Assembly (NCBI GenBank): GCA_029204225.1 | Contig: CM055095.1 | Location: forward strand, 60,404,540-60,468,539 | Origin: Diphasiastrum complanatum | Lineage: Eukaryota > Streptophyta > Lycopodiopsida > Lycopodiales > Lycopodiaceae | Length of the DNA: 64,000 bases | Direction: 5' to 3' | In this document: positions 7,701-64,000 of the stretch, piece after piece | Numbering within the stretch: position 1 is the first letter of the stretch | How the letters are laid out: every line of letters begins with the position of its first letter | Notes under the pieces: model-generated | The model's database searches: none | Seen by the model: only the letters and a program-made list of their open reading frames with translations | Told to the model about the DNA's origin: nothing | Program-made: the position numbers and the translations under genes

Positions 7701-7708
7701 TTCACATG

Positions 7709-7822
7709 GTCTGACCAATGAACCATTACCTCACGTAATTGACGGTCAGCTGATTTATTTAGGTGTTGCATGTCTTATGCTCCCATTCTCTATCTCACAC
7801 TGAGCGCACCTCTCACACATGG
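7709..7822 (-). repeat. Microsatellite-linked module A, partial copy
   Basis: Holds ACCAATGAACCATTACCTCA then CGTAATTGACGGTCAGCTGA and GCTCCCATTCTCTA, nearly the same as 16,657-16,770. It runs directly into the CT array at 7823. The other half of the module, with the GGGCCC palindrome, is absent. Confidence 0.7.
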
Positions 7823-7982
<160 letters not shown>

Positions 7983-8049
7983 GTAAATATCTCGTTGTCT
8001 TTATCTCTCACGTGTGCAACAAAGAGCAAAATCTCACAACTAGAAAACT

Positions 8050-8405: not shown

Positions 8406-8480
8406 TTTTTTTTGCATGTTGATAATGACATGAAATTAGTTAAATAATATATTGTTATTAGTTCACTGGATTTTTCTCAG

Positions 8481-9784
8481 TTGAAAAATTGTTATTAGTT
8501 CTCAAGTTAGATGAATCAGAAGTAATAAAGGGACAAAAGCTGGAAAGAATTAGTGTTACAATTATGAATGGAGCATTAAGCAATACGATAAACTCGGAGA
8601 GTCTTGATTTCAGCGTGCAGACCAAAAATAATATTTGGTGGTTGGAAGCTTTCCAGGTTTAAATCTATTCTATTGAGTACTAGCAATTAATTCATTTCAC
8701 GAATTAATGGTTTTGTGTTTTAAGCTAATATTGTTCTGTTATTATAGGTCTGAGTTCAATTCTCCTAAAATAGTTCATGATTTTGTGTTTCAAACAGGTT
8801 TTAAAAGAAGATCATGACATTCTATTTTGGATTTTTAGTAAAACAGAATATCCAGAGATAATTAAGGATCATATGAGCGACACACCACTCAATGTTCCTG
8901 GAATAGGTGATTTTAAGGTGGAATGGCATTTGGCTGGAGACCTGAAGTCATTGAAGTGCATGTTCAACGTCTCACATGGAGCAAATTCAAAACATCCATG
9001 CCTCTATTGCATGAAAACTACACATGACATGTCGAAGAGCACGCGAGTTTCAAGGGATATAGAAAATCCGACTTGGAAACCAGTATTACTGATTTTGCTT
9101 AAAAATGTTCACATTTGTACACTACATGGAGAGGTTAGAATTATCAAAAAATTGATATACCTTCATATTTGGTTTGCTTGGAATACTAAGCCAAAGTCAT
9201 TAGCCAAAAAGGCAATAGCTCGATTGGAAGAAGTTTTATCAAAAGCGGGACTTCATAAAGGACATGTTAAAATACAAAAGGACGAGAAGCTTTCAGGAAA
9301 AATGGGAAACATCCCATGCAAACCAAGTATAGGAGGATCCAAAGCTCGTCGTTTCTTATCAAATCATTCCGGAAAACCAACTAAAATCCAGTACTCAATT
9401 TGGATAGATGTACTCAATGCCACAAAGGATTTTGAAGAAAAAGGAACAACGAGGATTAAAATAGTTGAAGTCCGGACAAAGCTTGACAACATGGTGAAAT
9501 TGCTCAGAAAAGATAAACTATCTGATATTGATGTCCTACTAGTTGAGAAATCAACAATTGAGTTTGTGGATGCAGTTAAGGACGCCTGGGGTGAAGATCA
9601 TATTACGCATTATATGGTATATCTCTTTTCAATGTAACTAACCCTTCGATTTATAATCTCATTGCACATATGCTAAATTTAAAATTATAATATGACAATA
9701 TTTGTATCTCTGATATTGCAGCACATTTTACGACATCATGCATCATTTTTTGCAAAAGCTTATAGCAGTCTAATAAGGATATAA
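8481..9784 (+). pseudogene. RAG1/Transib-like transposase relic, copy 1 (three exons, truncated)
   Basis: C-terminal part of a transposase-like gene that I do not recognise by name. Inferred exons are 8481-8656, 8798-9616 and 9722-9784, with GT/AG introns. Exon 1 carries KLDESEVIKGQKL. Exon 2 carries VEWHLAGDLKSLKCM, CLYCM, HICTLHGEVRIIKKL and ends AWGEDHITHYM. Exon 3 continues HILRHHASFFAKAYSSLI and stops at TAA 9782. The copy at 40.3-43 kb shares each block and the last intron position exactly. The layout (Asp, 20 residues to CxxC, LH motif, ITxYxH-x4-H) matches the RAG1/Transib catalytic core as I recall it. The glutamate-bearing end is missing here because of the stop, and the N-terminal half is absent. 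Presumably it once encoded a cut-and-paste DNA transposase. Family assignment is inference. Confidence 0.65.
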
Positions 9785-16440: not shown

Positions 16441-16800
16441 TAGAGAGAGATTTTAATTAAAAATAGAATAAGTTCACTTCGGTGCCCTATATTATGAAAA
16501 ATAATATAGGGCCCAAAAATGGGTTTTAATCGAATGAACGACAATTACGTAGTAGGTAATGGCCATTGGGAGAGCCATTACCATAAATAATCTGGGACTC
16601 GGCTACGAGTGGCGGAGGCCACAAGCTGTCCCGGGACCGGATTATTTGTGCTAATGGTCCGACCAATGAACCATTACCTCACGTAATTGACGGTCAGCTG
16701 ATTTTTTTAGGTGTTGCCTGTCTCTTCTGCTCCCATTCTCTACTTCACATTGAGGGCACCTCTCGCGCATGTTCTCTCGCTCTCTCTCCCTCTCTCTCTC
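16437..16800 (-). repeat. Microsatellite-linked module A, full copy (reverse orientation)
   Basis: From left to right: a GA run, TTTTAATTAAAAATAG, a CCCTATATTATGAAAAATAATATAGGG palindrome split over 16,484-16,512, ATTACGTAGTAGGTAATGGC, a G/C-rich centre flanked by AAATAATCTGGGAC and GGACCGGATTATTTG, ACCAATGAACCATTACCTCA, CAGCTGATTTTTTTAG, then a CT-rich end. It is the reverse complement of 18.77-19.04 and 19.68-19.98 kb. Confidence 0.75.
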
Positions 16801-16848
16801 TCGAGCATAAAAGAGAGCCCTCACTGTCTCGTGTGTGCAATTCACAGC

Positions 16849-17180
<332 letters not shown>

Positions 17181-18767: not shown

Positions 18768-19178
<411 letters not shown>

Positions 19179-19581
19179 AAAGCAAATACTTTGGTTTCAG
19201 ATCCTATCTTTTGAGATCTGTTATGCAAAACTATCCCTCTTTCAACAATCTGACTTCTGATATCTATCCTACAAACAATGAATTTCAAGTGACCTGTCTC
19301 CTGCAATCTACAATCTGTCTTCAATGACCAACATCATTAATTTTGCAGCAAACTAGTGAACCCTAGAGTATGCTCTAGCAGCAAATCTTGTAATAATAAA
19401 AGAATCATTGTTCTTACAATCTATAATTATGTACAGGTGCTCTCCAACAATCTCTCTCAACGATAAGATTTCTAGATCTAGTTTTCAGCTGTGATTTCCT
19501 CTTTGATTTTCAGCTACATCTAATCTGAGAATTTATAGCAGAAATTTGAAACCAATTTCAGTGAATCAACATGTTTTGACA

Positions 19582-22122: not shown

Positions 22123-22180
<58 letters not shown>

Positions 22181-22220
22181 AGGACAGAGACAGAGGGTAG
22201 AGCGAGAGAGAGGACTCAAA

Positions 22221-22252
<32 letters not shown>

Positions 22253-22570
22253 ATAAAATAAAAAAAGATGACAGGCCCTCTATTATTTTGTCCTAAATAA
22301 TATAGGGCCAAACGGGCCTTAAAATCAGGCGAACTGCCATTACTATAATCTATAGGGGAACGGCCATTACTTATATAATGTATAGGAGAATCGATCATTG
22401 TGTGTGTATGTGTGTGTGTGAGCGAGCGAGAGATAGAAAGAGAGAGAGAGAGAGAGCGCGACGAGAGACAGAGAGGGAGAGCAGAGCGAGAGAGAGAGAG
22501 CGCGCGCACAGGACAGACAGAGGGCAGAGCGAGAAAGAGGGCGCAAGAGAGAGAGAGAGAGAGAAGGAGA
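22075..22570 (+). repeat. Type-B modules with (GA)n and (GT)n runs
   Basis: GGCCGTTACTTATAATGTAT then TAGGGGAATCAATCATTG leads into GA arrays (22,125-22,179 and 22,221-22,247). A type-B module follows at 22,248-22,398 with GGCCCTCTATTATTTTG / TAAATAATATAGGGCC. A GT run and an irregular GA/GC tract follow, ending just before the ATG at 22,583. Confidence 0.8.
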
Positions 22571-22582
22571 GAAAGAGCGGGC

Positions 22583-28981: not shown

Positions 28982-31510
28982 ATGCTTAACATGTACATGG
29001 AGATGGGCTTGTCAAAACCGCAGCGGTACCGCATATGTATGGGATCCAAAGAAAGTCCTCACTATCCAGAAATTATTCCACCAAGCTTAGAGGACAACTA
29101 CGATGGTTGTTTGGTGTATTGTCTCTGTCCCACAACTCGTGCAAGCAGGAAGAAGCTAAAACGAGATTGTGTTATGTGTTATGAACGATGCAAGATTTGT
29201 CGATTGCCTAGGAAGGACAGAGTACCTTTTTATTATGCCCCCATTGGACCTCAACTACAATTGTTGTGCAAAAGTAGAACATTTTGCTATGAACTTTTGC
29301 GAATGTGGCGTAACAAGGGAAATTGGTTGGGCAAACAACCACATGAGCACCCAAAACATATAAGGGAATTTTGGGATGGAGAAAAGTGTAGGGAGTTTCA
29401 AGAGTTTTGGGATCCAAATTCCCTTTATGAACTACCAACAATTTGTGGACGTGAATTTTGCAAAAGAGCATATGTGACATTTCCCCATACATGTGAAACC
29501 CTTCAAAGTTCATGGGATGAAGATGGGCAACAATATAATTTTCGATGCGATAGATGTCGCATGTCTATTAGAAGCCAACGAAAGATGGCAAAGGTAATTA
29601 TCCTTACATGCATCTCCTGTTCATTTTTTAAGTTTGGATTGAGAGCATCGAGGTACTGACTCTAGCGCATTGTTTGGATAGGGAGACCCTAGGAATTTCG
29701 CATTACTCTTGCACACTGACGATTTCCAATCGTCGCACACAACACAAAATGATTGTTATGTGGTAGAGTTGCGTCTGTTAAATGCTGGGAAAATGTCGCA
29801 AGTCAATACTCTCCCAGTCCTATTTATTCCTCTAAGTTGCAAGAAAGTTTTGCAAACTGTCGATGGTGTATTTGCTGCATTTTTGGAGCCGTTAATTTCA
29901 GATCTCGAAGTTCTTTTTTGCAATGGGTTGGATGTACAATGTAACTACCCACCGGATCTTATATTTGGGGATAACATCACGACAGAGGTGACCATGAATT
30001 GCAAGGTACATGCGATATTGATGATGGTTACTAAGGATCATCCGGCGCAATGCAAACTAGGGTTGTTCAAAGATGGTGGACAAGCGTTTTGTCGAAGGGA
30101 CAAGGCAAGAGCCACATTTGACTCGCGCAGGGATGGCTTGATTGGACAATATATTTATGATGCCAATAGGTACCAAGCTAGGTACCCACCACCCAAACAA
30201 ACGATCACTGAGATGGTAGAAGGCATACACAATGCAAGGAAGACATCATTCCAAAGTGGTAGGGATCAAATTCTAAAAGATGTGGATTGTCAGGGGAATC
30301 TTTTTTTTGGAGACTGCATGACTTGTATGGTTTTAATCTTTCAGTGGACTTTGTGTATGATGCCATGCATATTCTTTCTTTAAATTTGTTCAAGAAATAC
30401 ATATTATGACTCATGAAGGAATGCACAAACGAGACAAAAAAGAACATCGATGAAATTGTGCATAATGTTTGGGCCGCTGTCCCAACATCAATTCGACATG
30501 GACGGTGGCCACATGTACCGAGCAAGTACTTCGCCAACTTCAAAGCTAAAGAAAACCAAAAGTTTGTTCAATGGTGCTTGCCATCTATCTTGGCAAGTGT
30601 CGATGACATCCCAAAACCTTCTTTGGAGCTTAGACTGTTGATGATAGACATAGCACATATATTTTACAACTTTAGTAGGAGCAACGGTTGGTCCATGGAA
30701 AGCATGAATGTCGCACGTGTTTTATTTATGTCATGGAGGGTTCATAGTGAGGAGTACCATGGCGCAAACTCATCTCCTTTGGAGCATGTTGCAGGTTTGC
30801 ATCGTGATATGTTATGCATTATGTTGAGTTCATCAAGTTGACCTTTTTTAGTCCTTTTCTGTTGTGGGAAATAACATCGGCCTCTTTGTAGTAAATGGAG
30901 AATTGTTGGATGACATATATCGCCATGGATGCCATGATATCTATTGGTGCTATGATTTTGAGAGGAGCGTTTCCACTTATGTAAACATATCCACCAACAA
31001 TAGAATGAATGAGATTACATATTCACATTTCTATGCCAGAAAATTGTTCACATCTGTTTTCCAAAATTGCCAACAAGATATGGATGTCCTTATGCTAAAT
31101 CACAAGAAGCTCATTGATTTCCACAATTGTTTGATATTTCCCAATGGTTTTGCAGCCCATGGTGAGGAAGCTTCAACTTGTTTTTCCATGCATACCCAAT
31201 GCATCTTGGAGGTATCTTCTATTGCTCAAGCCAGGAATTTATGGAAGCAATGTAAAGCAAATACATGTGGAGCACCTTGTGATGAGTTGCTCAAAACCAA
31301 GGGCATTGCTATCACCAAGAAGAAAAAACAAGATCGTGTCTTGTCAGAAGAAGAGATAAGGTATGCAAAACAATTTTGGAATGTAAGCAAAAGCGAGGCC
31401 ATGTTTGAAAAGGCCACTCTTACAAAAAAGTCTTCTTTGATGGAGTGATCTATGCACCAGAAGATCATGTGTTGTCCGAATGGATGGTGGGGACGTAAAC
31501 ACAGACATCG
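28982..31510 (+). pseudogene. Tnp2-like (CACTA/EnSpm type) transposase, decayed
   Basis: Parts in order: a Cys-rich stretch CVMCYERCKICRLPRKDR then FYYAPIGPQLQLLCKS, matching the zinc and (Y)xPxxPRLQ-like segment of Tnp2 transposases. A plausible intron follows (29,593-29,681, GT/AG). Then come LLHTDDFQSS, LPVLFIPL, FLEPLISDLEVLF, DHPAQCKLGLFKDGGQAFC, LHDLYGFNLSVDFVYDAMHI and ANFKAKENQKFVQWCLPSIL. The Asp-Ala-Met-His block and the KxxEN..F..W block are the family's landmarks. The C-terminal part runs to about 31,440 and then, shifted, to VFFDGVIYAPEDHVLSEWMV. Breaks: a frameshift at an eight-T run near 30,300, a TGA near 30,407, and shifts near 30,840 and 31,430. Terminal inverted repeats were not found. 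The enzyme would have cut out and moved DNA, but this copy is dead. Confidence 0.72.
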
Positions 31511-39078: not shown

Positions 39079-39447
39079 TTTTATCAAACAAACAAAATCA
39101 AATTCTAAATTCTAAGAATAATCACATCAAGTAATTACAACAGATAATTAGGAGAGTTGACAAGAAAAAAACGACAAAGTCTTTATTCACATTCGGTCCA
39201 TTTCCTTCAGAGAAAACTTAAGATTTTCTGATAGCTTTGCTGATGACATTACTAGTTTTAACATTTCTAATGCTAATTTTAGAGCATCACTCTCATTCTC
39301 ATAAGGGCCAAATAAACCCGAGAGAATGAGTCGGATCTTGAATCAAGGGCATAAATCATTCAAAATGGCTTTTCAGAGGACGCAGCAAGCCTTTGGCACT
39401 GATGGGGATAACTTACCTCTCCAATGTGCTTGGAGAGCACTTTGCAT

Positions 39448-39985
39448 TTAAGAAACTCCATCGGTCCATTTTGGATTGTACTTGTTGTTGAAGCAGAAAA
39501 TAAAGTTGTTATGCAAGCTCCCAATGTAGTGGGCCAGAGACTTATCTAGAGTTCCTACTTCAGCTTTATCCCGAACGTCGCCCCTTCGCATAACAAAATC
39601 ATCAATCTCCATTGTGTCCTGCATTTGGTTCAAATTATTGCAAAATAAGTATAATGACGACAAACAAACATAACAAAAACACACAAGTTGAATTGTTGGG
39701 TCAAACTTGCTTGGTCCCTTCATCAAGTGACTGATAAATCTATTGAGATGAGCAATAAAGGGTCTATGTCCTTTCCACATATAACTAAGCAAGTTATATG
39801 GAATCCACATGATAGTTGACCCAGGAATTTGTACAATATACGGCTTCAAAGTTTCATTTGTATACTCACTCACATACATGAATGCATCCACATTAGCCCG
39901 TAGAGTGGCAAGCGTGTCTATTCTACTGGTGAACATACAATAAATACGGTCTAACTGATCTGGAAATTGTGTGGGGTAACTCTAT
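39448..39985 (-). CDS. Hypothetical two-exon fragment downstream of the RAG1-like relic
   Basis: Two open stretches on the minus strand join through a 66-base GT/AG intron (39,619-39,684): FPDQLDRIYCMFTSRIDTLA, TLKPYIVQIPGSTIMWIPYN, then after the intron DTMEIDDFVMRRGDVRDKAE and a TAG at 39,448. Joining keeps the frame. I recognise no domain. A mildly hydrophobic stretch with two Trp (MWIPYNLLSYMWKG) is notable. It follows the transposase-like relic on the same strand by about 290 bases, so it may be another part of that element or an independent gene fragment. Confidence 0.4.
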
Positions 39986-40273
39986 TTTAGAAGAAGACAT
40001 TGTAATGCAACAATAAACACTTATTTACCAGCAAATTATTAGTCTAATTGCACGACACAAGTTAAACTACGAGGGAAGAAATTTCAACAGAGCAAGAAGT
40101 GACAACAAGTTGAGAACTCACACTCTTATATAGAGGGACGTGTTTCCAAAAATAGATATTTTTATAAAACAAAATAAAACAATTTTTATTTATAACAACA
40201 ATCCAATTAGTTAATAATATTGATCACAAAAGAATATTCGAAAAACAATCTAACATAAATTGTTTCTACTCCA

Positions 40274-42975
40274 TCACATCAGTTTTTGTTGCTTCTCTGG
40301 CATTGTTTTCCAAAACAATGGATGTTGGTGGCCTCGGCATCCATCTATTTCCAACTTGGACTCTAGACATCCTCCATTCTTGATGTCTTGTTTAGGCTTA
40401 GAGGATTGCCATGCGGTCTTTCTAATTGAATTTGAATTGGAGATCATTGAACTCAACTCTTCAGTTCTTGTGTTTTCAAAGTGTCCTCGGCCCAAAACTC
40501 CTCTGTAAAACCATTGGAATATCTCAACCAATACATTACTAAGACCCTTTCCTCTACCATGGCGTGAATTTTTTAAATATGCAGCCTTTGCCCTGTAATG
40601 ACTCTTCTCCATCCCTTGCGTATTCCAGATAGCTAATGATCCATAGGTTTTCTTAAACCAAGATCCATGAGCATAGAAGATGTGCTATTCACATTTGTAT
40701 TAGTTTAAATCTTTATAAATACATAAATACAAAAGTAAAAAATATGATACACACATACCATATAGTGAGTTATGTGTGTTTCTCCCCATGCATAGATCAT
40801 CATTTGAATGAATATTTTGACTTCTCTTGCATATCTATTCAAATCTTCATCTCTCACAATCTTTTTGTTGATAGTTTGTGACAAGGCATCTAATGCTTAC
40901 CGGACCTTAGCACGTGTACTTGTCATGCGAGGATCTGAGCCAATATTTGTTGTGCATTGACATATTTTCTTCCAGTACTCCCATTCAACACTGCTTTCAC
41001 GTACATTATGATTTGACAATAAGTGTCTCGCTTTCGCACCATCCATTGAAACGTTTGCTAGAACATCTTGCATTTTTTCACTCATCTCAACGTCTTTGGT
41101 AAGACTCACATGGCCCCCATGCAATCTCATATCGGATAAAATTATCTCTAGACTTCTAATGCTAACATCTGCTCTTGATTTGGGCTGCACATTCCATGCG
41201 TAATAACAATGCAAAAGTAATAATTTGTCCAATATTCGTAATTCACCATGCAATGTGCAAAAATGGACTCTTTCGAGAGGAACGTTCAACACAGGACTCA
41301 AAGCTTTGTCTAGATTGTGCTAATTGGTGCAAGATGCTGGTTGCAATTCAAAATACTTTTGTTTCGCCCAAATTCAAGCATACAATATATGCAAAAATGC
41401 TTTGCATTTGCACCGAGACCACAACTGTACATGAATTTCAAGGTCTTCAAATCAGCAGCTAGGTGCCATTCTACAACAAAGCTTTCTCCTTCAACATTGA
41501 GCAATTTGCCTTCATTTTGTGCATGTATTATCTTAGATATACTATGTTTTTCAAATAGCCACTTCAATATTTTGTGAGACTCCTTAGGAACTTCAAATAC
41601 AGTTATCCACCATATGTGATTTTCGGATTGCATACTAAATTCTACAATAACTTCCGCCAAACTGTTACAATTCACGGTTCATCAAGGTGATTGTCAAGTT
41701 TATGCCCTTTTACGATTTCCGCTTCATCCAACTTAATATCAAATATAATTTTACCTCCGCAATTTGTAAAACAAAATTTCCATTATGATGACATATCAGT
41801 TGAAGAGAAGCATACAATTGAAAACTGGAATCTACAAGAAATGTTCTTACCATTTGTTTTAACTTCATAATGTCCGGGCTTGGACCTTTTCCAGATCTAA
41901 TAATATATTGTTGCCTTGATGATAATGAAAACAAGTCGGAGGTCCTTTCTTCTTATTGGCTACTATAAATTAATCCTCAATATGCTGAAATTCTCCTAAC
42001 TTAGAGAGCAAAATCGAATTGCATTCTCATTTGGCAGATTCAACAAGTTTATAAGTACTAGTAATTAACCCATTTTTGTTAGAGCGTTTCATATACTTCT
42101 TTAAAGCTCTATACCCCTTGCGACTCACACCTCCTTGGTCACATGTGTACACCATCTCTTTAACATTTGGATTTGGCTTGAACTTGTCGACTAGCTTTTT
42201 CGCAATTCTCAAGCAAATTGGATCACTTGTTTCATCTTCCACAATTTTAATCAAATATTTACCCTTCAGAAAATGTTTCATATATTTTTCGACAATAAAA
42301 TCTTTTCTAACCATATTTTTCAAAAACTCTTTTGTGTCCCTCATACATCTTTTACTGGCACCAACACCTGGTGTCAAAGCTTCTAGTTTCTGTCTCTTAG
42401 TGTTTTCATTTTGTGCTTGCTAATCCATTGAGACTCTACGCTTTCGTTGTAAGCCATATATTGTCCTCTGAAATATACTGATTGAAGATTGCAATTCTTC
42501 AATTTTTGCGACAAAACTGACAAGCTCTATTTTCAAACTGTTTATCTCCTGCTCCAATTTCATATTTATTCCATGCAATGACTTTAAATTGTCATTCATA
42601 CTTAAGGTATAAATGTTTGTTGTATTTGCCAATGTCTCGGCTTGGATTCTTCAAGAATCCATTGCTTGACAATAGCCAAGAAGTCCATTACCACCATTCC
42701 CAACGAACCTTAACAAACTATGTACATTAGAAAATTTAGGAGGAGCATCTACCAGTGGATTGCGGGGGTATAAATCACCTCTTACCCATAGGTCAATATG
42801 TTTTTTGCCTTCTAATCTCCAACAATGCATCTCATATGGATTTTAGTTAACACCCAATGTAGCTTTGGTTGTCACATAATCCTTCTCTAATTTCACATGT
42901 AAGTGATACTTGGTTGTCATCTTGAAGATGTCGAATTTCCCAAAAGAATCTATGTAGAACTTTACAATATACCTT
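40274..42975 (-). pseudogene. RAG1/Transib-like transposase relic, copy 2 (near full length)
   Basis: Longer sister of the relic at 8.48-9.78 kb. Reading downwards: an N-terminal block (IDSFGKFDIFK, MHCWRLEGKKHIDLWVRGDL, RFVGNGGNGLLGYC), a coiled-coil (MKLEQEINSLKIELVSFVAK), a basic block ending YTCDQGGVSRKGYRALKKYM, IIFDIKLDEAEIVKGHKL, VEWHLAADLKTLKFM then CIYCM, ERVHFCTLHGELRILDKL, AWGETHITHYM, an intron of 74 bases (40,685-40,758), and HIFYAHGSWFKKTYGSLAIW NTQGMEKSHYRAK ending about 110 residues later. The Asp, CxxC, H-x4-H and Glu fit the RAG1/Transib core, with 20 residues from the last His to the Glu. Stops near 42,850, 42,650, 42,420 and 42,027 and frameshifts near 41,735 and 41,665 show it is dead. 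Zinc and catalytic roles are inferred from spacing. Confidence 0.68.
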
Positions 42976-43199
42976 AATCAAATGGTGTCAAAGTTCAATG
43001 TGAACTAACCATAATATAAGCTTTATTAGGCATATACTAGCTTCCATGCCTAGGGTCCTATTGTAGTTAGGACAATGAAAGGTCATCCTATACTAACCTT
43101 ACTCTAGTTGTGCTTTATAACTTACCTATTAGTTACCTATTATAGTCTATGCAGATAACCTACACTATTCTATGAAAATGAGACCTACATTAAGGCCTT

Positions 43200-43340
43200 A
43201 ACTCTTGCTCAACTTGTGTGGTAACCCAAGGTAAAGGTGCCATGTAGGATTGATTAGCACTAAATTAATCATGATTATAAAACTTGTTTAGGAAGAGGCC
43301 CTTTTGAGTCCAAAAAGGACCCTAATGTAGAAATTCCGTA
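43200..43340 (+). repeat. Dispersed repeat, copy 2 of 3
   Basis: GGTGCCATGTAGGATTGATT, CTAAATTAATCATGATTATA, TTGTTTAGGAAGAGGCCCTT and TTGAGTCCAAAAAGGACCCT match the second half of the 34.3 kb repeat. Confidence 0.65.
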
Positions 43341-43344
43341 TCAT

Positions 43345-43516
43345 TTCATTCGAGAGAAAGTTTTCTCAAGGAAAGTAATCCTTCAATACTGCTCCACAAC
43401 AGAAATGGTCATAGACATCTTCACCAAAGTGCTTCCCAGGATCAAGCATTAGAAGTTCTTTGACATGTTGAACCTGATGAAGACGCCAAGGCACCAACCG
43501 TGACCTTGAGGGAGAC
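43345..43516 (+). pseudogene. Copia RNase H C-terminal relic with polypurine tract
   Basis: Reads HFIREKVFSRKVILQYCSTT then EMVIDIFTKVLPRIKH, a stop, KFFDML. This is the last part of a copia polyprotein. The TTGAGGGAGAC tract at about 43,505-43,516 is the expected polypurine primer, lying directly before the LTR start TGTTGAAAATTAAG at 43,517. The LTR's far end is not clear. The rest of the element is missing, cut off by the dispersed repeat. Confidence 0.75.
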
Positions 43517-45400
43517 TGTTGAAAATTAAGCCCATTGTTGTCTCCTTGGTGAATGACTAATTTCTATTTCAAGATTCTTCCTGCACGTTTATTGATCTTT
43601 GATCTAGGGTCAGGTGAAACCAACTTTGGTTCTATGTCTGCTCGTCTGATACCTGCAGGAATCACAACTCAAACATCCAAACTATTTGAAGAACATCTAC
43701 AACGGGCTTCCGGCTAATCTCCAACAAAGGGTAACCAATCCTATCATATTTCAAGTTCAAATGATAAGTTCAACAATTTGAAGTCATTGAAGACTTGGCC
43801 ATTTTCAAGGACTTCCAATAACTAGCATTTAGAATAAGTTTGCAGAAACACATTACTTTTTCGATAGTCTGCAGAAATACACTAAGTGTTGCAATAGTCT
43901 ACAGAAATGAACTATGTTTTTCATAGTGTCGGCTTTTCTCGAAATGTGACAGTGTCGATTTTTTCCAAAAAGCAACACTTCAGCATAGTTCAATAGTTAA
44001 ACTATTTTCAACAATGTCAGCTTTTTTGCACTTTCTCTAAAAAGCAATGCTTGCCTTCAACTTTTCGTTTCAACTATTTTGAAAAAGTTAAACTATTTTA
44101 AGGGCACTGTCAGCTTTTTAACGGCACTATCACATTACATTGTCGGCTTTTTAAGGGCACTCTTGACTTTTTCGCAAAATCTTGAAGAGAGAAAAGCCCG
44201 ATAGTCGACTATTCAAGCCCAGGCACTTCCCAAAAAGAAGCGCAGTGAGAGAAAGCCACTTCACGTAAAATGCGAAGTGAGAGAACTTTCGAAGTCCTCA
44301 TCCACGTCAACATTCCCTGATTCATTGACCATATATACTATGTATAGTTGTCACAAAAGCCAAATACTTCCAAGTACAATGGCTTACCTAATTAGGTGAC
44401 AAACATTTACTATAGCTAGTATGGATGCAATCTATAAATGGATCATCCAAGAACACTCTATGTGATGTTCCGTCCATGAGATGAATGATTTTGATCCTTC
44501 CTGTTTCGCCATCATTCTGGTTGTAACTGCTATTTGTTGTGCTTCAGTGTAATATAGTAGCATCACGCTTTTCTATTTGTGTGCAACGTAGATGAATGCT
44601 TGTTGTGATTTGAATGCACTTCATTGTTGTTTGATAGCATTTGCTTACTCACTCTGAGCAGAACATGACTCCTCAATTTTTTATTAGACAATGGCTATCT
44701 CTGACGCCTGAGGAACTCACGCTATCACGCTGCTCTGTCAATCTATTTCAGAACTAAACTTCTGACTAAATCCATTTCCAGTAGTATCACACACAAACCA
44801 TCTCTAATCTCTTCGGTGGACTATACTCATTTTTGTTCTTGTGAGTATAAATTAATTTATAAGATCTTGTTGGGCAATAGAATACTTAAGTTGTGATTAT
44901 ACTTAGACATTCTATTAGACTTTTTTTGCATCTAGTAGCCCACTGTAACGAGAGAGCTGTTCTGCAAATATTCTTGCTCTCTTCTTCGTTTGCGTTCTCC
45001 ATCCTTACATCGCCCCATCACTTATCTCTCATACCATAAGAAAGATCCAAACCCTAAGCATACTACACACAAGAAAACACTCTATACACTAGTAGCCACA
45101 CTAGAGCATAAGCATAGCAAACAAAAGAGATCTCTTCCACCCCCCCCATGGGCACCCTTCTCCCCTCATATAGATGGCAAATGGCACCCTCCAATACACT
45201 ATGGAGTTCCATGCACAACCAATGAGAAAGAGAGAGGCCTAGGGGAGTTAAAGAAATTTCATAAGCTTATGGAAGGTCAAGAGACTTCTTCCATAACCTA
45301 TGACTCTTTGAATGTCTTTCTTGTGGGAGTTTGGAACTCAATGGACACCTTGGAAGTGCACCCTCCTACTAGGTTCCATCCCAAGTTGTGCTTGTATACT
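43517..45400 (+). other. 3' LTR start and downstream non-coding sequence
   Basis: Starts with the LTR of the preceding relic. Short direct repeats TGTC(A/G)GCTTTTTAA(G/C)GGCACT occur near 44,105-44,160, and a TATATACTATG box lies near 44,331. I cannot place the LTR end. An open stretch at 44,990-45,418 has no domain. Confidence 0.4.
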
Positions 45401-46038: not shown

Positions 46039-46336
46039 GACTTCCCTACTATTTATGGATGAGGAAGATGACTCTCTCTCCTCTCTCTAGAAGGTACTTG
46101 ACCCTAGATATTCCCTATATAGGAAAAATAGCTAAAAATGGCTTATATGACCAAAATACATCAAAATGGTCTCATTTTGAAGGGTATGAAGTTTGACACT
46201 TCATCATACTGAAAAAATACAGTAAATAAAAACATTGTGGCCTGGTTCACACGTGTGAAACTCCAGAACCAAAACTATTTACAATTTTAGCCAATTTAGG
46301 CCTCAAACTAGCTAGGAAATGTTGACAATTTTCACA
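46039..46336 (-). repeat. 3' LTR, U3 part only
   Basis: Matches the 5' LTR base for base over 298 positions, including the palindrome TTCACACGTGTGAA and TATTCCCTATATAGGA. Left of 46,039 only a weak echo (TCTCCAACCT at 46,021) continues before similarity is lost. Confidence 0.88.
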
Positions 46337-49300
46337 CTCCCTCTTCAACATTGGATGCTAGTTTCAACATAGTCTTTGAACACATTCCAAGATTAGATCT
46401 ATGCATTAAATATAGGTCCTTTCCCAATGGTTTGGTGAAGATATCAGCCACACACTCCTTTGAAGAGACATGTTGAAGCTCCACCTCTTTGGCAATGACT
46501 TGATCTCTCACAAAATGGTGAGCAATCTCAATGTGCTTGCTCCTTGCATGAAAAACAGGATTGCTTGCCAAGCTTTGGGCTGAAAGGTTATCACAAAGTA
46601 TGATTGGAGTCTTCTCTGGTTCCAGCAAGTGAAGATCCAATAACATCCTCTTGATCCAAAGAATCTCCTTGGTGCATGTTGTTAATGCCTTGTACTCGGC
46701 TTCGGTGGAAGATAGAGAGATAGTTGGTTGCTTCTTTGATAGCCATGAGACCACTCCATCTCCAAGATAGATTGCAAAGGCACTTGTTGACTTCCTATCC
46801 ATTTGATCACCTGCAAAATCTGAATCTGAAAATCCACAAAGGTTAGGTGTAGTACCTCCATACAAGATGCCAAAATCTCTAGATCCCGAGATGTATCTAA
46901 GTACTCTCTTTCCTAGCTTCCAATGAGCCTCACTAGGATCTTGCATAAATTGACTTAGTTTACCAACCACAAAGCTTAGATCAGGTCTTGTGATGGTTAA
47001 CCATATAAGAGATCCTATTAGCTTTCTATAGAGAGTAATGTCCTTGAAGGATCTTTCATTACTTCTTGTAGTTAGCTTTACATTTGATTCCATAGGAGTA
47101 GAAACAACTTTACAATCTTCCATATGAAACCTTTTTAGAATAGAGTTAACATACTTTTCTTGACATATGAATGTAGATTTAGAAGTTCTAATAATCTCTA
47201 TTCCTAAGATATAATGAAGTTTACCAAGATCTTGAATTTCAAACTCTCTTTTGAGTGCCATCTTGATTTCATCTATATCTAGATTGTTACCACCACTTAA
47301 GATAATGTCATCAACATAGATCAAAAGTAAAGTGATATCATTTTCATTCAATCTAAAGTAGAGAGAATGATCATACTCACTCATAACAAAGTTTTGAGAA
47401 AGTAAGAAGGAATTGAGCTTAGCATACCAACTCCTTGGTGCTTGCTTTAGCCCATACAAATTCTTTTGGAGATAGCACACATGATTAGGCTCATCATGTG
47501 AAACATAGCCCTCGGGTTGCTCCATGTAAATATCTTCTTCAAGATCACCATTCAAGAAGGCATTAGTAACATCCATTTGCCACATATCCCAATCATAAAG
47601 AGTTGCAAGAGAGATTAGGATTCGAATAGTTACCATCTTTGCCACGGGTGCAAAGGTCTCATCATAGTCAATACCATATTCTTGAGCATACCCCTTTGCC
47701 ACCAACCTTGCCTTGTACTTGTTGATTGATTCATCTTGATTTGTCTTGATCTTGAAGATCCACTTACAACCAATTGCCTTCTTGTCCTTTGGAAGCTTTA
47801 CCAACCTCCATGTGTTGCTTTTGATGAGTGCTTGATGCTCATGATCCATGGCTTGGATCCATTCCTTCTTTTGAATTGCTTCACCTACACAAGTTGGTTC
47901 ATCAAAAGAGGTAAGAAAAGCAAAGTTAGAGTTGTCCACCACTTGCTTTCCTTTTTCATCATAGGTTAGCCTTGATGGCTTAGCCCTTTGCCTTTGAGTC
48001 TTCCTTGAAGTTTGCTTTGGAGTGGCATCTCCATCTTCATCCAAGACATCTTGCACATCATGATGATTAGTAGGCACATCAACATCAACATCAACAACAT
48101 TGGAAACATTCTCTTCATGAAAGATGACATCCCTACTTATGACAACTTTCTTTGTAGAAGGAATGTACACTTTGTAAGCCTTGCTTACTTCACTATAGCC
48201 AACAAACACACCCTTCTTTGATGAAGGATCTTCTTTAGTTCTATCATCAAGTGTGATATTGACAAAACATGTACATCCAAAGATCCTACAATGCTTGACA
48301 CTCGGCCTTCTACCATAAAGAACCTCATGAGGAGTTTTACCATCCAAGGAAGCACTTGTCCATCTATTACATAGATAGTTAGCACATGCTAAAGCTTCCC
48401 CCCAAAAAGACTTAGCAAGATTAGCATGTAGTCTCATTGCCTTGGCACATTCACAAAGGGTTCTATTCTTCCTCTCGGCCACTCCATTCTGTTGTGGAGT
48501 CCTAGGACTAGACATCTCCCTCTTAATCCCATGTGCTATACAAAAGTCTTTGAACCTATTTGAGGTGTATTCCCCTCCATTATCAGATCTTAAGCATTTG
48601 ATCTTTGTATTGAATTGGTTTTCCATTTCATTCTTGAACTTGACAAATGCAGCAAACACTTCATCCTTACTTTTAAGAAGATAGATCCAAGTATACCTAC
48701 TAAAGTCATCAATGAAAGTTGCATACATCTTTGCCCCACCATTGCTAGTTGTACTAGAAGAATGAATATCAGAATGCACAAGTTGAAAAGCTTCTTTAGA
48801 TCTAGAAGTAGATCTAGAATAAGCAAGTCTATGAGAACTGGACAAGGCACAATGTTCACAAACACTATTGTTTGCAACAAGACTTTTAGGGAGACCAAGA
48901 ACAAGCTCTTTCTTTGCCATTACCTCCAAAGATTTGAAGTTGGGATGGCCCAACCTCTTGTGCCAAACTTCTTGGTTTGTCAATTGCTCCCTAGCCATAC
49001 ATCCTTCATGATTAGAGATCACACATGCATCAAGCTTGAAAAGTTTACCATGCCTCCTACCTTGAGCAATCAAGGATCCACATTTACTTATCAAACATGC
49101 ATCTCCAATGAACTCCACATCAAGTCCTTTGTCAATCATTTGACTTACACTAAGCAAATTCTTAGTGATTGAAGGAATGTACAAAACATTTTCAAGATTT
49201 GCTTTCCTATTTGTTGAAAGGGAAATAGGAATAGTGCCTATGCCTTTGATGTCACATTGACCATCATTTGCAGTGTAGATGATGTTACCTTCTCCCTCAT

Positions 49301-50285
49301 AAGACAATAAGGATGTAAAGTATTCCTTATGTCTTGTCATGTGAGATGAGGCTCCACTATCAATCCACCAAGGATCATTATCATCTATGTTGGCTAACAA
49401 ACTTGAAGTCATAACAAGTGATTCACATGTGTTATGTTCTTCCTCATCTATTGTAAGATTTCCTTGCCTCTCTCCTTGCTCTCTTTTCTTCTTATAACAT
49501 TCATTTGCAAAATGACCTTTTATCCCACAATAAAAGCACTTGAACTTTGACTTATTGTTCTTAGTAGAAGAGGAAGAGGAAGAGTGATCATCATGATCAA
49601 AGTTACCACCTTTGGACCATTTCCCTTTGCCTTTACCTTTGCCCTTGAATTTGCCTTTTGTGAAGAAAGCCTCTTCACCTCCACCTTGCAAGGATGCACC
49701 ATCAAGCTTTGATTGCAACCTATGTTCTTCAGCCAATAAGATTTCTTGCAAGTCAACCACACTTGGCAAGACTCTTTGAATGGCAAAACTTTGCACAAGG
49801 TTAGCATGTTCATTTAGCAAACCATTCAACATAACTTGGACTATTTCACCATCTTTTATGTTCTCATCAATGCATGCTAAATCATCACTTAGGGACTTAA
49901 CTCTCAAGATAAATGCATGAGCACTTTCACCCTCTCTTTGCCTACTAGAAAATATTTGTCTCCTTAGGGTCAATACCCTAGATGTGGACTTTGATTCAAA
50001 GAGCTTCTTTAAGGCATTCCATGCCTCACTTGCACTTTGACACTTTCCAACTTCCTTGAGAAGTTCATTTGTAACATTCATTTTAATGATATGAAGAGCC
50101 CTTTTGGCCTTCTTATCAAACCTTTGTTGCTCTTGAAGTGTGAGAGGTCTCTCTTCAATTTCTGCAACTATGTCCATGAGTTCATTCAACTCAAGTAAGG
50201 ACTCCATCCTCACTTTCCAAGTAGAGTAGTTTGATGAACTCAACCTTTCACTAGACTCTAGCATGATCCCACCATTGGAAGCCAT
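46332..50285 (-). CDS. Copia Gag-Pol polyprotein
   Basis: 1317 residues without a break. Gag (residues 1-240) starts MASNGGIMLESSERLSSSNY and has the UBN2-type capsid. A Lys/Gly-rich stretch leads to the zinc knuckle CFYCGIKGHFANEC (250-263). The protease has D-S-G-A at 309-312. The integrase has its His/Cys zinc motif (H442, H447, C476, C479) and catalytic D506, D568 and E604, the last two 36 apart as expected. The reverse transcriptase has D905 (QMDVTNAF) and YVDD at 990-993. RNase H shows D1154, E1195 and D1232, and ends near DIFTKPLGKD. All known catalytic residues are present. Length is normal for copia. The final codons run through the polypurine tract, and the stop codon lies in the LTR. 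Transcription would start in the 5' LTR. Confidence 0.97.
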   Translation of the reverse strand: MASNGGIMLESSERLSSSNYSTWKVRMESLLELNELMDIVAEIEERPLTLQEQQRFDKKAKRALHIIKMNVTNELLKEVGKCQSASEAWNALKKLFESKSTSRVLTLRRQIFSSRQREGESAHAFILRVKSLSDDLACIDENIKDGEIVQVMLNGLLNEHANLVQSFAIQRVLPSVVDLQEILLAEEHRLQSKLDGASLQGGGEEAFFTKGKFKGKGKGKGKWSKGGNFDHDDHSSSSSSTKNNKSKFKCFYCGIKGHFANECYKKKREQGERQGNLTIDEEEHNTCESLVMTSSLLANIDDNDPWWIDSGASSHMTRHKEYFTSLLSYEGEGNIIYTANDGQCDIKGIGTIPISLSTNRKANLENVLYIPSITKNLLSVSQMIDKGLDVEFIGDACLISKCGSLIAQGRRHGKLFKLDACVISNHEGCMAREQLTNQEVWHKRLGHPNFKSLEVMAKKELVLGLPKSLVANNSVCEHCALSSSHRLAYSRSTSRSKEAFQLVHSDIHSSSTTSNGGAKMYATFIDDFSRYTWIYLLKSKDEVFAAFVKFKNEMENQFNTKIKCLRSDNGGEYTSNRFKDFCIAHGIKREMSSPRTPQQNGVAERKNRTLCECAKAMRLHANLAKSFWGEALACANYLCNRWTSASLDGKTPHEVLYGRRPSVKHCRIFGCTCFVNITLDDRTKEDPSSKKGVFVGYSEVSKAYKVYIPSTKKVVISRDVIFHEENVSNVVDVDVDVPTNHHDVQDVLDEDGDATPKQTSRKTQRQRAKPSRLTYDEKGKQVVDNSNFAFLTSFDEPTCVGEAIQKKEWIQAMDHEHQALIKSNTWRLVKLPKDKKAIGCKWIFKIKTNQDESINKYKARLVAKGYAQEYGIDYDETFAPVAKMVTIRILISLATLYDWDMWQMDVTNAFLNGDLEEDIYMEQPEGYVSHDEPNHVCYLQKNLYGLKQAPRSWYAKLNSFLLSQNFVMSEYDHSLYFRLNENDITLLLIYVDDIILSGGNNLDIDEIKMALKREFEIQDLGKLHYILGIEIIRTSKSTFICQEKYVNSILKRFHMEDCKVVSTPMESNVKLTTRSNERSFKDITLYRKLIGSLIWLTITRPDLSFVVGKLSQFMQDPSEAHWKLGKRVLRYISGSRDFGILYGGTTPNLCGFSDSDFAGDQMDRKSTSAFAIYLGDGVVSWLSKKQPTISLSSTEAEYKALTTCTKEILWIKRMLLDLHLLEPEKTPIILCDNLSAQSLASNPVFHARSKHIEIAHHFVRDQVIAKEVELQHVSSKECVADIFTKPLGKDLYLMHRSNLGMCSKTMLKLASNVEEGV
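46337..46349 (-). promoter_or_regulatory. Polypurine tract (plus-strand primer)
   Basis: GTTGAAGAGGGAG on the minus strand ends directly at the LTR's TG. It is also coding, as the last residues V-E-E-G of the polyprotein. Confidence 0.85.
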
Positions 50286-51445
50286 GATTCTAATGTTTCT
50301 TCAACTTTTAGGTTCTGTCCTAAAGCACTTAGCACTCACTTTTCTCTCAACAAATGATAGATAAAGAGATCTATGAAGATTTAGGACCCTAAAACACTTC
50401 TATCTTGAACCTAGATGGTTTCCAAGCATAGAAAGGAAGATTGAAACACATGCAACACTTTGCACACACTAAGAATGGATTACAAAATCAAACCAACCTG
50501 AACACACTCTTGCTTAAGCTCTCAAACTTTCCAGCAAGTGACCAAATCAAGTTATGGTGTGAAGAGTTACTTGCATTCTTAGAAAATACCCAAAACTAGG
50601 ATGCCAAGATTACCTAGTAATGAACAAACTTGATCAACATATGATCAACACACTAAGATATTGATTCAACCTGTAAAACCACATGTAAACCACACTTCTA
50701 AAAGTTTATAAACTCTAGCAAGTGATAAATACAAGATTTAGAGGTGAATGAATGAGCACACTTAGTGAATCACAAGACTAGCTTCACTATCTTGTCAAAT
50801 CTTGGTGTTTAGATGTAGATCTAAGATCACTTCACATGAGAATGTTCCTCAACCTGTTAAGAACCTGAAAACACACTTGCATAATGGTTAACACCTTCCA
50901 GCAAATGCTCCAATCAAATTACATAAGGAGAGTTACTTACATGCTCAACAAAGTACACCAAAATTTATGCCAAAATTGATGACAATCTTTACAATATGCT
51001 CTTCACAATGGAGCTTACAATATGTTCACCCAAAAAAGGGGATCTTTCATCCAAATGGGAGCTTTGCTCAGCCTTTAGGAGAATTACAACTCACTCAAAA
51101 GAGCATTTGTCATCCACTTAATTAGAAGTTTCATCCACTTAAGGAGAGTGTTCATCCAAGAATGGAGATTGTCAACAATAGGATTGAAAAGAACATTGTT
51201 AGTATTGAATATGCACAAGCCTCACAATCACAAATGATAAGGTGTTATGATTTGATCCAAAATAGTTTCTTTTCAGCCTCTGATCTTCAATAGACCTGAA
51301 ATATGCTTTTGATCCACAAGTTCAACTCACAAAACAAAGGTTAGTAAGATTTGATCAACAAAGCAATGCAAAATCATGCTAGAACTTGATCAAACATCCA
51401 AATATCACCAAAAATGGAATACTTACTGTAAATAGAAGCCAACCA
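50286..51445 (-). other. Copia leader region
   Basis: Untranslated leader between primer site and Gag start. It contains loosely repeated words (AACCTGTTAAGAACCTGAAA, CACACTTGC, TTCCAGCAA) on the plus strand and no open frame of note. Confidence 0.7.
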
Positions 51446-51457
51446 GCTCTGATACCA
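51446..51457 (-). promoter_or_regulatory. Primer-binding site
   Basis: TGGTATCAGAGC on the minus strand, complementary to the 3' end or internal part of initiator tRNA-Met as in most plant copia elements. It sits immediately inside the 5' LTR. Confidence 0.93.
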
Positions 51458-52112
51458 TGTGAAAAATACAGATCCTAAGTGGATCTAAACTCCAAGATCA
51501 TTGGCTTGAATGCTTGCACTCCAAACTACATAAGCTAGGAATTGGCAACACATTCTATGCTACCTAGAATGCAAAGAACTTGATCAAAAAGCATTTATCA
51601 CAAATGGAAACCTCCATAAACATCAAGTGCGGCCCAAAATAGTATTATACAGTCCATAATACATCAGCCTATCACTTTTGGAAAGCACCTAAGATCATAC
51701 ACAATAGCTTGAAGACAATACACACAACAATGCTCTCAATGGAGGAAGAAACAATGACAATGATCTATTGATCTCAATGAAGCATACAAAAGGTTTCTCC
51801 AACCTGTTCTCCACGACTTCCCTACTATTTATGGATGAGGAAGATGACTCTCTCTCCTCTCTCTAGAAGGTACTTGACCCTAGATATTCCCTATATAGGA
51901 AAAATAGCTAAAAATGGCTTATATGACCAAAATACATCAAAATGGTCTCATTTTGAAGGGTATGAAGTTTGACACTTCATCATACTGAAAAAATACAGTA
52001 AATAAAAACATTGTGGCCTGGTTCACACGTGTGAAACTCCAGAACCAAAACTATTTACAATTTTAGCCAATTTAGGCCTCAAACTAGCTAGGAAATGTTG
52101 ACAATTTTCACA
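51458..52112 (-). repeat. 5' LTR, 655 bp
   Basis: Ends are an inverted TGTGAAAA / TTTTCACA. The U3 half is shared with the left LTR. The CACACGTGTG palindrome near 52,026 is a G-box core and could act in transcription. Confidence 0.92.
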
Positions 52113-60590: not shown

Positions 60591-63500
60591 CTAACTTGCT
60601 AAAGATACAGCTGGCTTTAGAATATCAAGATATAATCCATGTTCCCTCAAGTCAGGTTTTGTATGCCTGGTAACAAATGGATTTCCAGTTTCATCCACAT
60701 CCAAAAGGGCGGTATCACCTTCTTGATATCCTCCGGCGAGCAGTGCATCACTTAAAATATCCTCAACAAGACGGGTAACTGTTCTCCTGAGAGGACGCGC
60801 ACCATAACTTCGATCATAACCCTGATCACTAATTAGCTTCATCATCTCCTCTGATACTTCAAGGTTGACCCCAACTTTAGTAAGACGATCCTTCGTTTCT
60901 CTCAGCATGATGTCAAGAATTTGCCTAATCTGCAATTTTGAAAACACAAACTCAATCAGATCAGACTGAAACAGGAAAATAGGAGTGCTAAAATGAACAC
61001 GAAAATTTTCAATAGGAGAAAAGCATTGGTTTCTGGTAAAACGGCAATTGTGTTGCTAGTAAAAGCGGCAAGGACCTCACACCAACTGGACTGAATGTGG
61101 TTTTATGTTCTTAACAGAAAAAACTTCTATTATATCATACAGCTTACCTGAGATTTCTCCAAGGATCTAAAAACCACCACTTCATCCAATCTGTTCAGAA
61201 GCTCTGGCTTGAAATATCCTTTGAGTTCATCCATAACCAATGATTTAAGCGATGCATAATGGCCTCCATCTTCGTCTTCTGAAAAGGTGAAGCCGATCAT
61301 GCTGCTTTTGCCTCTTGCAATTGCAGATGATCCAATGTTGGATGTCATGATCAGGAGAGTGTTTTTGAATGAGACTACCCTTCCCTGCAGGATTTGAATG
61401 AATAGTATGTGTAAGCATAATGCCCAAAGTTTTTTGAAAACACCTGTACATACTGCTCAAGAGAATAAAAGTAACTACTTGCCAACAGCGCGTACCCCAT
61501 TGCTCTTCTTCCATTGTCTAATTACCTGTGAATCGGTTAATCGACCATCTTCAAATATTTGCAACAACAAGTTAAAAACATCAGGATGAGCCTTCTCAAT
61601 TTCATCAAGAAGGACCACAGTGAAAGGCCGCCTCCTAACTGCCTCTGTTAGTGTCCCTGCCTCACCATACCCAACGTATCCTGGTGGGGAACCCACCAAT
61701 TTGCTCACTGTGTGTCGCTCCATGTACTCACTCATATCTAGCCTTATCATGGCTCCTTCCTAAAATTCAACAGCTACCATCTTGTTACAACTTACAAAAC
61801 TCCAACGTGTAAGAAGCAAATGAGCAATATGTCTTAGTCCACAATCATCAAATATGAGGAAAGGAAATCTACCAGTAAAAAACCTAGCTACAATTATCAA
61901 TGCAAGAAAAAAAGATTTGCAAGGCACTCACCGATCCAAAATAATGTTGAGCTAAAGCTTTTGTTAACTCTGTCTTTCCAACTCCAGTAGGACCACAGAA
62001 CAACAATGCTGCAATTGGTCGATTTGGGTCCTTCAAACCGACCCGAGCCCTTCTCACTGCACGCGATATTGCACTAACAGCATCTTCTTGACCCACCACA
62101 CGTGTTTGGAGTAGCTGCTCCAGGTCAAGCAGTTTCTTCTGTTCATCTGCTGTAAGTTGTTGAACAGGAATACCAGACCACATAGATGCAACTGCAGCGA
62201 TCTCGGCAGGACCAACCACAACTGGACTGTTGACAGGAATGCAGAAGACTGAAATTAAAACTAAATGGAACACATACAAGTGCCCCAATTTTCGGCAAAG
62301 AGTACATCTAAAATGTCAAAGGGGTAGCAAATTCAGGAGTATACCCATCAGAAAAGTTGTCATCAGAAGAAAAATTTGATGATGGTGAAGCCTCTGGAGA
62401 TAAGGCGTCTGACTCATTTTGCAAACCCTTGGAAACAGAAGGGTCAAGAAGCCGGGCTTCTGATGCATAGTCAACACTTCCAAGTGCAGTTTGTGAGATT
62501 AAAGCCTGCAACAAAAGAAATGAGAGTCAAATATGCACACTTCGTAAACCACCCGAGAAAGGGAAACCTAAAATATCAATAGATTGCTATCAGTGAGGTC
62601 CGTGAACAGTAAAAAGGAAAAAACTTACAGCTTCTTGTGATGCTTGCACCGCTCGTATTTCCTGCCAATACTCACTCGGAGGTTTTGATAAAATGCTCAC
62701 TTGTCTCTCCTTCCACTTTTTGAATGCATCTATACGAGCACGACTTCCAGCTTCATCCAATAAGTCAATAGCCTTGTCTGGAAGATATCTGTCTGCTATG
62801 TATCTTGCAGAAAGGTAGACGGCAGCATCTACTGCATCAGCAGTTATCTTACATTTATGATGCTCCTCGTACCTCTCTCTTAAGCCCAAGAGAATCTTCA
62901 CAGCATCCTCCTGCAAAGAGATAGCTCAACCCCTTAATCTGATTGTAAGCCATCAAAAAGCCTTCAGTTGCTGTGAAATCCTAGAAGACTTGAGACATGC
63001 ACTTGACAAAGCTAAAAATGAATTAGCAGTAAACATAAAGAGTAGTAATACCTGACTTGGTTCCTTCACAAAAACAGGCTGGAAACGGCGAGCCAGAGCC
63101 TTGTCCTTTTCAATATGCTTTCTGTGCTCATCTAAGGTTGTAGCGCCAATGCACTAGATACGAAGTCAAAAGCAATTAGAGACCAAAAACTATGCAATTT
63201 ACGTGTTTCAGGTACCACGTGAATTCACGTCTTTTGAAACCCACTGCTCAGATTTGTGAAAACAGATGCACTACCTGAAACTCCCCCTTTGCAAGGGCAG
63301 GCTTCAAAAGATTAGCTATGTCCAAGCCTGCGCCACTATTTCCTCCTCGTCCAGCAGAGCCAGAGCCCACCAGTGTATGAATTTCATCAATCATAAGTAT
63401 GACATTGCCTGCATTCACATAGGAAAAATTCAAATATAGTCCCTGCATGTACTCTAGGTATTCTTGAAACAAAACAAAACTAGAAGTGCTCTCACCTGCA

Positions 63501-63955
63501 CTGCGAGTCTCATCAACAAGACTAGTCACACGTTTTTCCAGCTCTCCACGTTCCTTTGCCCCGGCAAGAAGCAACCCCATATCTAGAGACATGACTCTCT
63601 TGCCCTGGATACAAATAAAACCCAAAGGCACAAAGTGAGAAAAAGGATAAAGGTGGATGAACTAACATACATTGCGTTCATTGATGTAAACTGCTTTGAC
63701 TAGACTACAAAAGCCAAGCACGTACAACAAGGAACTCCGGCACAGTTCCATTTGTGATACGAATGGCGAGACCCTCAGCAATGGCAGTTTTCCCAACTCC
63801 AGGCTCGCCTAGAAGAATAGGATTACTCTTGGTACGTCTAGCTAGGATCTGCACAACTCGCTGGACTTCTTCGTCACGCCCTATAACAGGGTCAATTTTC
63901 CCTTCAGCTGCTCGCGCAGTCAAATCAAGGCAGAAGTCTTCGAGAGATCCCTTAT
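60591..63955 (-). CDS. CLPD: ClpD (ERD1-like) plastid Clp ATPase, last ten exons
   Basis: Exons on the minus strand: 63,726-63,955; 63,496-63,604; 63,275-63,408; 63,052-63,153; 62,632-62,910; 62,345-62,505; 61,932-62,226; 61,526-61,759; 61,148-61,384; 60,591-60,929. All have GT/AG borders and the frame is kept throughout (about 705 residues). The first ATPase domain has Walker A GEPGVGKT and Walker B VILMIDE. A middle region follows, then the second ATPase domain with [21 protein letters not shown], an IGF loop and GARPLRRTV. The ending [13 protein letters not shown] and the segments [11 protein letters not shown] and [20 protein letters not shown] fit ClpD better than ClpC. This stromal unfoldase threads proteins into the ClpP protease. 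In Arabidopsis ERD1 responds to drought and ageing. The transit peptide and N-domain lie beyond 64,000. Confidence 0.95.
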
Positions 63956-64000
63956 CTGCATTAATAAAATTCACTTTGCTTATGAAGCCTCATATTTACA

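Follow-up and report, generated by a model that had tools for sequence, protein, structure and literature searches.

Two copies of a decayed gene, designated A and B, in the 64-kb stretch of Diphasiastrum DNA that was analysed as a whole (the window) are likely the remnants of dead DNA transposons whose DDE transposase had a core resembling that of RAG1. RAG1 derives from a transposon, and its relatives are known mostly from animals. Conserved residues in a common order and spacing were observed in the family to which the two copies belong, together with a similarity to the RAG1/Transib core that exceeds shuffled controls, and both copies are broken and unable to transpose as they stand. The family is probably best described as a RAG1-like DDE transposase on a deep, separate branch, rather than as a demonstrated Transib.

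Copy A extends on the minus strand from a start near position 42920 to a stop at 40276-40274. The original prediction had placed a relic at 40274..42975, and while all of the strings it named were indeed found on the minus strand of copy A, the span had to be shortened to the interval given here. Since the pieces of copy A are held in three reading frames, with frame changes between pieces, and are interrupted by in-frame stops (42845-42843, 42653-42651, 42422-42420, 42029-42027 and 40899-40897), its core is readable only after joining. When the joined copy A was used as a query, 22 proteins were retrieved, and a profile search, which scored only the 8000 candidates with the most shared words, added 5 further ones, giving 27 relatives, among which P0021 from the fern Adiantum capillus-veneris is the only one with a species name. 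No Pfam model was found for the family formed by copies A and B and these 27 relatives, and pattern scans confirmed no family relatives in viral and prokaryotic contigs. Conservation was assessed in an alignment of 28 rows, consisting of both copies and 26 of the 27 relatives (P0002 was left out), in which 525 residues of P0023 were retained and 16 relatives were truncated at the THYM site. The parts of copy A, with their conservation in this alignment, are as follows:

40274..42920, minus strand: copy A, decayed transposase gene from the N-terminus to the stop, from ORF translations
42420..42920, minus strand: N-terminal region, DLWxxGxxYPxxP...LLRFVGxGxxGLLGY and then a helical-looking stretch, common by eye to P0004 and P0018
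42027..42419, minus strand: pre-catalytic region with the family motif CDxxGVSRKGY, seen in the translation
41726..41728, minus strand: first catalytic Asp (KLDEAE), D in all 20 covering rows
41451..41453, minus strand: second catalytic Asp, HLAADLKTLKFM (AADLKTLK), D in all 23 covering rows
41382..41393, minus strand: CxxC (CIYC), half of the putative zinc site, both Cys in all 18 fern-type rows
41233..41262, minus strand: FCTLHGELRI block, His in 25 of 25 covering rows, matching ALH of RAG1 and SLHa of Transib
41017..41049, minus strand: SMDGAKARHLL block, Gly in 24 and Arg in 25 of 26 rows
40685..40758, minus strand: intron of 74 nt (GT-AG) between ITHYM and HIFYAH, at the same site as in copy B
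40667..40684, minus strand: HIFYAH (HxxxxH), half of the putative zinc site, both His in 6 of 6 covering fern-type rows
40607..40609, minus strand: catalytic Glu (WNTQGMEKSHY), E in all 9 covering rows

The pre-catalytic region (42027..42419) had no Pfam match. In the joined reading, the first Asp lies 93 residues ahead of the second, in agreement with the roughly 100 residues originally proposed for the Asp in KLDEAEI, and the Cys residues of CIYC follow the second Asp at +20 and +23. The second Asp and the Glu are 257 residues apart. Once the 74-nt intron (40758-40685) is taken out, ITHYM and HIFYAH become contiguous, and the predicted 20 residues from the last His to the Glu of WNTQGMEKSHY are borne out. 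The SMDGAKARHLL block aligns with R848-MNGNFARKLM of RAG1 and with GNTARRFF of Transib. Judged from related families, the fold would be RNase H-like, with two metal ions bound by the Asp, Asp and Glu triad and one zinc ion held jointly by CxxC and HxxxxH in the insertion that separates the second Asp from the Glu. By analogy with related systems, a dimer of the transposase would bind the element ends, nick the DNA and then form hairpins on the flanking DNA, and the excised element would be inserted at a staggered cut.

Six relatives, P0022-P0027, form a second clade in which the two Asp and the Glu are retained, while both Cys and the last His of the zinc site are gone wherever these positions are covered. 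The CxxC is replaced by Asn and Asp in 4 of 4 rows, and in HxxxxH the last His is lost in 4 of 4 rows with the first His kept in 2 of 4. Such a joint loss of CxxC and the last His would fit with the two motifs forming one zinc site, as far as can be judged from the sequences.

The second copy is located elsewhere in the window and carries two introns:

8462..9781, plus strand: copy B, a fragment that starts ahead of the first Asp and stops just short of the Glu, with 43% identity to copy A
8657..8797, plus strand: intron 1 of copy B (LEAFQ / VLKEDH), which copy A lacks
9617..9721, plus strand: intron 2 of copy B, at the site of the copy A intron according to the intron-site comparison

At the corresponding THYM site, 19 of the 27 relatives have a Val (GTN codon) followed by unrelated residues, 6 continue with YMH or YMY, and the remaining 2 do not cover the site. 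As a Val encoded by GTN is what read-through into an intron would give, the intron site appears to be shared by these relatives; the second clade is without an intron there. In a tree of 21 rows, copy A grouped with P0003, P0004, P0006 and P0009 (support 99/98) and copy B with P0018 and P0021 (support 82/78). The two copies thus fall into different groups and represent two diverged lineages in the Diphasiastrum genome.

Similarity to RAG1 emerged from searches with single relatives as well as from profile comparisons. When P0021 was compared with Pfam, RAG1 (PF12940) was its best match (E 0.0019; 16.8 bits, with a curated cut-off of 25), and RAG1 ranked first among the best 25 of 30 Pfam families for the 27 relatives, although among the matches listed P0021 alone of the 27 matched it. 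This E value is weak when taken alone, since chance-like matches start at 0.0091 in the relatives' list and at 0.0025-0.004 with the yardsticks. Against all PDB sequences, RAG1 accounted for the top 15 of 20 matches of P0021, with a best E of 0.013 and the next match at 1.5; these 15 are variants of vertebrate RAG1 and are thus not independent of one another. As a yardstick, mouse RAG1 picks up HzTransib in PDB at E 0.0035, and the five comparisons of HzTransib-fragment matches with Pfam RAG1 gave E values of 3.5e-4, 4.6e-6 and 0.014, with no match in two. The family profile scored 32.3 against mouse RAG1 over 292 columns, more than every one of 100 shuffles (at most 27.9) and more than the reversed control (18.5), which upholds the earlier claim of a resemblance beyond chance. 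With C-terminal halves the score rose to 35.8 (150 shuffles, at most 24.5), and the hhalign probability, 14% for the whole family, was 55% for the C-terminal half. Fern-type rows scored 35.2 and the second clade 25.2, both without controls of their own, and across other reference rows the RAG1 score ranged from 21.2 to 33.3. Taken together, the top rank of RAG1 in Pfam and PDB and the shuffle controls bear out the originally predicted RAG1-like DDE core in a plant transposon relic.

The RAG1 alignment is in register at the second Asp, CxxC, LH, GxxAR, HxxxxH and Glu. In the RAG1 sequence from PDB the corresponding residues are D708, C727/C730, H937/H942 and E962, with 254 residues from D708 to E962; the positions and His spacing which the original prediction had given for RAG1 agree with this sequence, and its distances from Asp to CxxC needed correction to +20 in copy A and +19 in RAG1. 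Thus, RAG1 and the family share the three catalytic residues, CxxC, HxxxxH, LH and MxGxxARxL in the same order, a similar distance from the second Asp to the Glu (254 versus 257) and a last His whose +20 position is the Glu. In addition, the strings ITxYxH, GSxxxW and ExHxxL of RAG1 recur in the family, with ESDHETL of RAG1 corresponding to ExHxxL and MNGNFARKLM to MxGxxARxL, likewise in order. In contrast, identity is only about 20%, the family has another N-terminus and an intron inside the core, and the position of RAG1 R848 is occupied by Cys or Ser in 26 of 26 family rows. R848 of RAG1 suppresses transposition. The selection of this residue in RAG1 is mentioned in a figure legend of PMC9435367. 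In RAGL transposons the RAG1-like gene is accompanied by a RAG2-like gene; no RAG2 gene was noticed here, and a Pfam scan of ten ORFs of the window, one of them adjoining copy A, gave no kelch match.

A search for the ends of the element around copy A resulted in a single candidate:

39438..44279, minus strand: candidate for the complete element that contains copy A, with ends CACTTTGCATTT / CACTTCGCATTT (11/12), AGAG flanks, unproven

This candidate of approximately 4.8 kb has CACTT ends of a CACTTYGCATTT-like type and a 4-bp AGAG repeat. It was the only one (39438/44279) with CAC ends matching in at least 11/12 positions and a duplication of at least 4, and 0 of 300 first-order shuffles gave such a candidate, at thresholds (11/12, duplication at least 4) chosen after a first look. 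A looser pair at 37930/45481, with a 5-bp duplication and 10/12 matching positions, is weak and unproven, and no convincing 5-bp target duplication was found around copy A. Likewise, no convincing inverted repeats around copy A were present among the best 25 of 83 (the longest). A perfect 12-bp pair at 39680/43220 was rejected; it is without a duplication, and 91 of 300 shuffles yielded some such pair. A 177-residue ORF without a Pfam match (39451-39981), on the same strand as copy A and some 300 bases downstream of it, lies at the candidate left end. It would be either a second element product or host sequence, and in the latter case it would speak against the candidate left end.

The motifs on which the original prediction rested are not particular to RAG1 and Transib. 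According to PMC12730594, C(2)C and H(3-4)H are common to EnSpm/CACTA, Mirage, Chapaev, Transib, Plavaka, ESTA, Lanisha and RAG1, a group named CMCT whose members mostly have CA..TG ends and duplications of 2-5 bp. The CMCT motif set (D, D and E, plus C(2)C and H(3-4)H in the interval from the second D to the E) is present in the fern-type clade. As the motifs are group-wide, they place the family in CMCT and not specifically in RAG1/Transib; C2/H2 motifs alone identify neither RAG1 nor Transib.

One member of this group is Lanisha, and it is quite possible, though we would not call it probable, that the family is this already known element, an identity that would be compatible with the RAG1-like reading. 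The authors of Lanisha work on the moss Ceratodon purpureus, hence it is taken to be a plant element, which fits the occurrence of our family. Maumus, McDaniel and Carey proposed it as a superfamily in Repbase Reports (2020), and PMC12730594 cites it as a recent EnSpm-like lineage. It is a DNA transposon carrying the C2/H2 motifs that RAG1 and the rest of the CMCT clade have. However, its description gives a similarity to EnSpm, while our family has no CACTA signal above shuffles. Moreover, moss-named proteins were absent among the 27 relatives, though only one of these has a species name at all. Among the open-licence literature matches listed, PMC12730594 was the only one on transposons to name Lanisha, and no RAG1-like fern family appeared in the titles and abstract openings of the matches listed. 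That the family is undescribed, one of the options originally proposed, is therefore not established, given Lanisha as a possible match and the potential Transib-like plant proteins of Tao et al. 2022 (PMC9435367). If the family is Lanisha, the new parts would be its closeness to RAG1 and the further relatives.

That the family is a divergent transposase of CACTA/EnSpm or of another CMC-group lineage (Chapaev, Mirage, Plavaka or ESTA), sharing the motifs with RAG1/Transib by common ancestry but belonging on the CACTA side, appears unlikely. In CACTA, too, the Glu lies 20 residues beyond the last His. The CACTA sequences used further resemble the family in CxxC, HxxxH and an MH block, and CACTA elements have CAC ends, similar to the CACTT at the start of our candidate, whose 4-bp duplication is inside the 2-5 bp range of the group. 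In addition, ESTA has likewise been tied to RAG1 by HHpred, and the C2/H2 motifs run through the whole CMCT group (PMC12730594). In contrast, the CACTA comparison, which consisted of two sequences that were both recognised by Pfam, gave a score of 20.5 against the family profile, with 60 shuffles reaching up to 25.8 and an alignment out of register. Both sequences together scored 21.4 against the family (fern-type rows 23.7, second clade 15.1, without controls of their own), so that no CACTA signal above shuffles was obtained with these two sequences. Placement in CACTA by profile, one of the outcomes that the original prediction had named as speaking against it, was not obtained in this comparison. 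Transposase_21, DUF4218 and Plavaka were absent from the best 25 of 30 Pfam families for the 27 relatives. A scan of viral contigs for further CACTA sequences to compare gave none.

The reading of the family as RAG1-like also has to be weighed against horizontal transfer into the plant of a true Transib or RAG1-like transposon, which we consider very improbable. Transib elements generate a 5-bp target duplication and have CACWATG/CACAGTG-like ends. Against a profile of 59 of 74 Transibs (those longer than 600), the family scored 41.6 over 155 columns, above 80 column shuffles (at most 28.1) and the reversed control (22.3), with an hhalign probability of 49%; RAG1 scored 49.3 against the same profile. 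The alignment is limited to the stretch from the LH block through the Glu, in which the LH block, the GxxAR block, HxxxxH and the Glu align in order, and Transib is transposon-borne like the family. Five single Transibs scored 18-26 against the family profile, fern-type rows reached 30.4 and the second clade 19.0 (without controls of their own), the range across other reference rows was 26.5-39.7, and the C-terminal half scored 26.0, less than the largest whole-family shuffle. A horizontal origin could also draw on Tao et al. 2022 (PMC9435367), who infer much horizontal transfer and whose findings include 39 plant proteins that are potentially Transib-like and a RAG-like transposon of the microalga Aureococcus, and on the one weak 5-bp candidate (37930/45481), whose CA ends match in 10/12 positions. 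However, the tree places the family outside its eight Transibs, with a separate branch of about 3.7 changes per column; the family has its own N-terminus and its own introns, the second Asp to Cys distance is +16 in Transib (P0028) as against +20, and the residue at Glu+3 is Asn in Transib (EARNK) and His in the family. Similarly, Transib-type ends were not found around copy A, which is decayed, and CACAGTG occurred 3 times in the window, compared with 7.8 expected, and nowhere near copy A. Of the original assignment, the similarity of the core to RAG1 and Transib is borne out, while membership in Transib or in RAG1-like transposons proper is not supported, given the long branch, the other N-terminus and the 4-bp candidate duplication. 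Chance similarity of an unrelated protein with coincidentally matching motifs, for which one might cite that RAG1 was missed in PDB profile searches with three family alignments and that the hhalign probabilities were modest (14% for RAG1, 49% for Transib), is hardly credible given that shuffle controls were exceeded for both RAG1 and Transib, that RAG1 ranked first unprompted for P0021 in Pfam and PDB, and that CxxC and the last His were lost together in one clade.

Among the lineages compared, RAG1, Transib and CACTA, the RAG1-like family would thus be nearest to RAG1/Transib by sequence, with an N-terminus of its own. The tree took 8 of the 59 profile Transibs, and the branches of Transib, mouse RAG1 and the family measured 4.5, 3.9 and 3.7 changes per column, respectively, with mouse RAG1 flagged by the program as a long row. 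Because of these three long branches and a RAG1 placement flagged as unsure, a sister relation to RAG1 or Transib is not claimable. It is put forward only tentatively that, next to RAG1 and Transib, the family constitutes a third deep branch that is native to ferns and the hosts of the second clade.

Several other features were observed in the window. A copia-type LTR retrotransposon (46039-52112), with identical 298-nt repeats at 46039-46336 and 51815-52112 that are 5776 bases apart, contains an ORF of 1322 residues (46335-50300) with gag, integrase and reverse transcriptase domains, and is probably a recent insertion. Broken ORFs at 28982-31445, one of which has a weak Transposase_21 match (E 0.028, below the cut-off), are perhaps a decayed CACTA-like element. 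Exon-like minus-strand ORFs at 60594-63999, which encode a Clp/Hsp100-type AAA protein, perhaps belong to a host gene, whose product presumably resembles plant ClpD. Long CT/AG runs are located at 7750-8069, 16758-17047, 18989-19217 and 22130-22572; some of them are bordered by a repeat found in several copies (such as 7706-7775 and 16654-16723, 96% alike), which suggests a repeat family carrying CT/AG runs.

With a core closer to RAG1 than to CACTA, a plant family of this kind would provide an outgroup for the evolution of the RAG1 core, its zinc site and residue 848, and its intact copies would allow RAG-like hairpin cleavage to be assayed. If the family does represent a third branch, eukaryotes would have possessed a RAG1-type core long before the appearance of those animal lineages that have been the main subject of its study, and the zinc site could be lost with the DDE triad kept.
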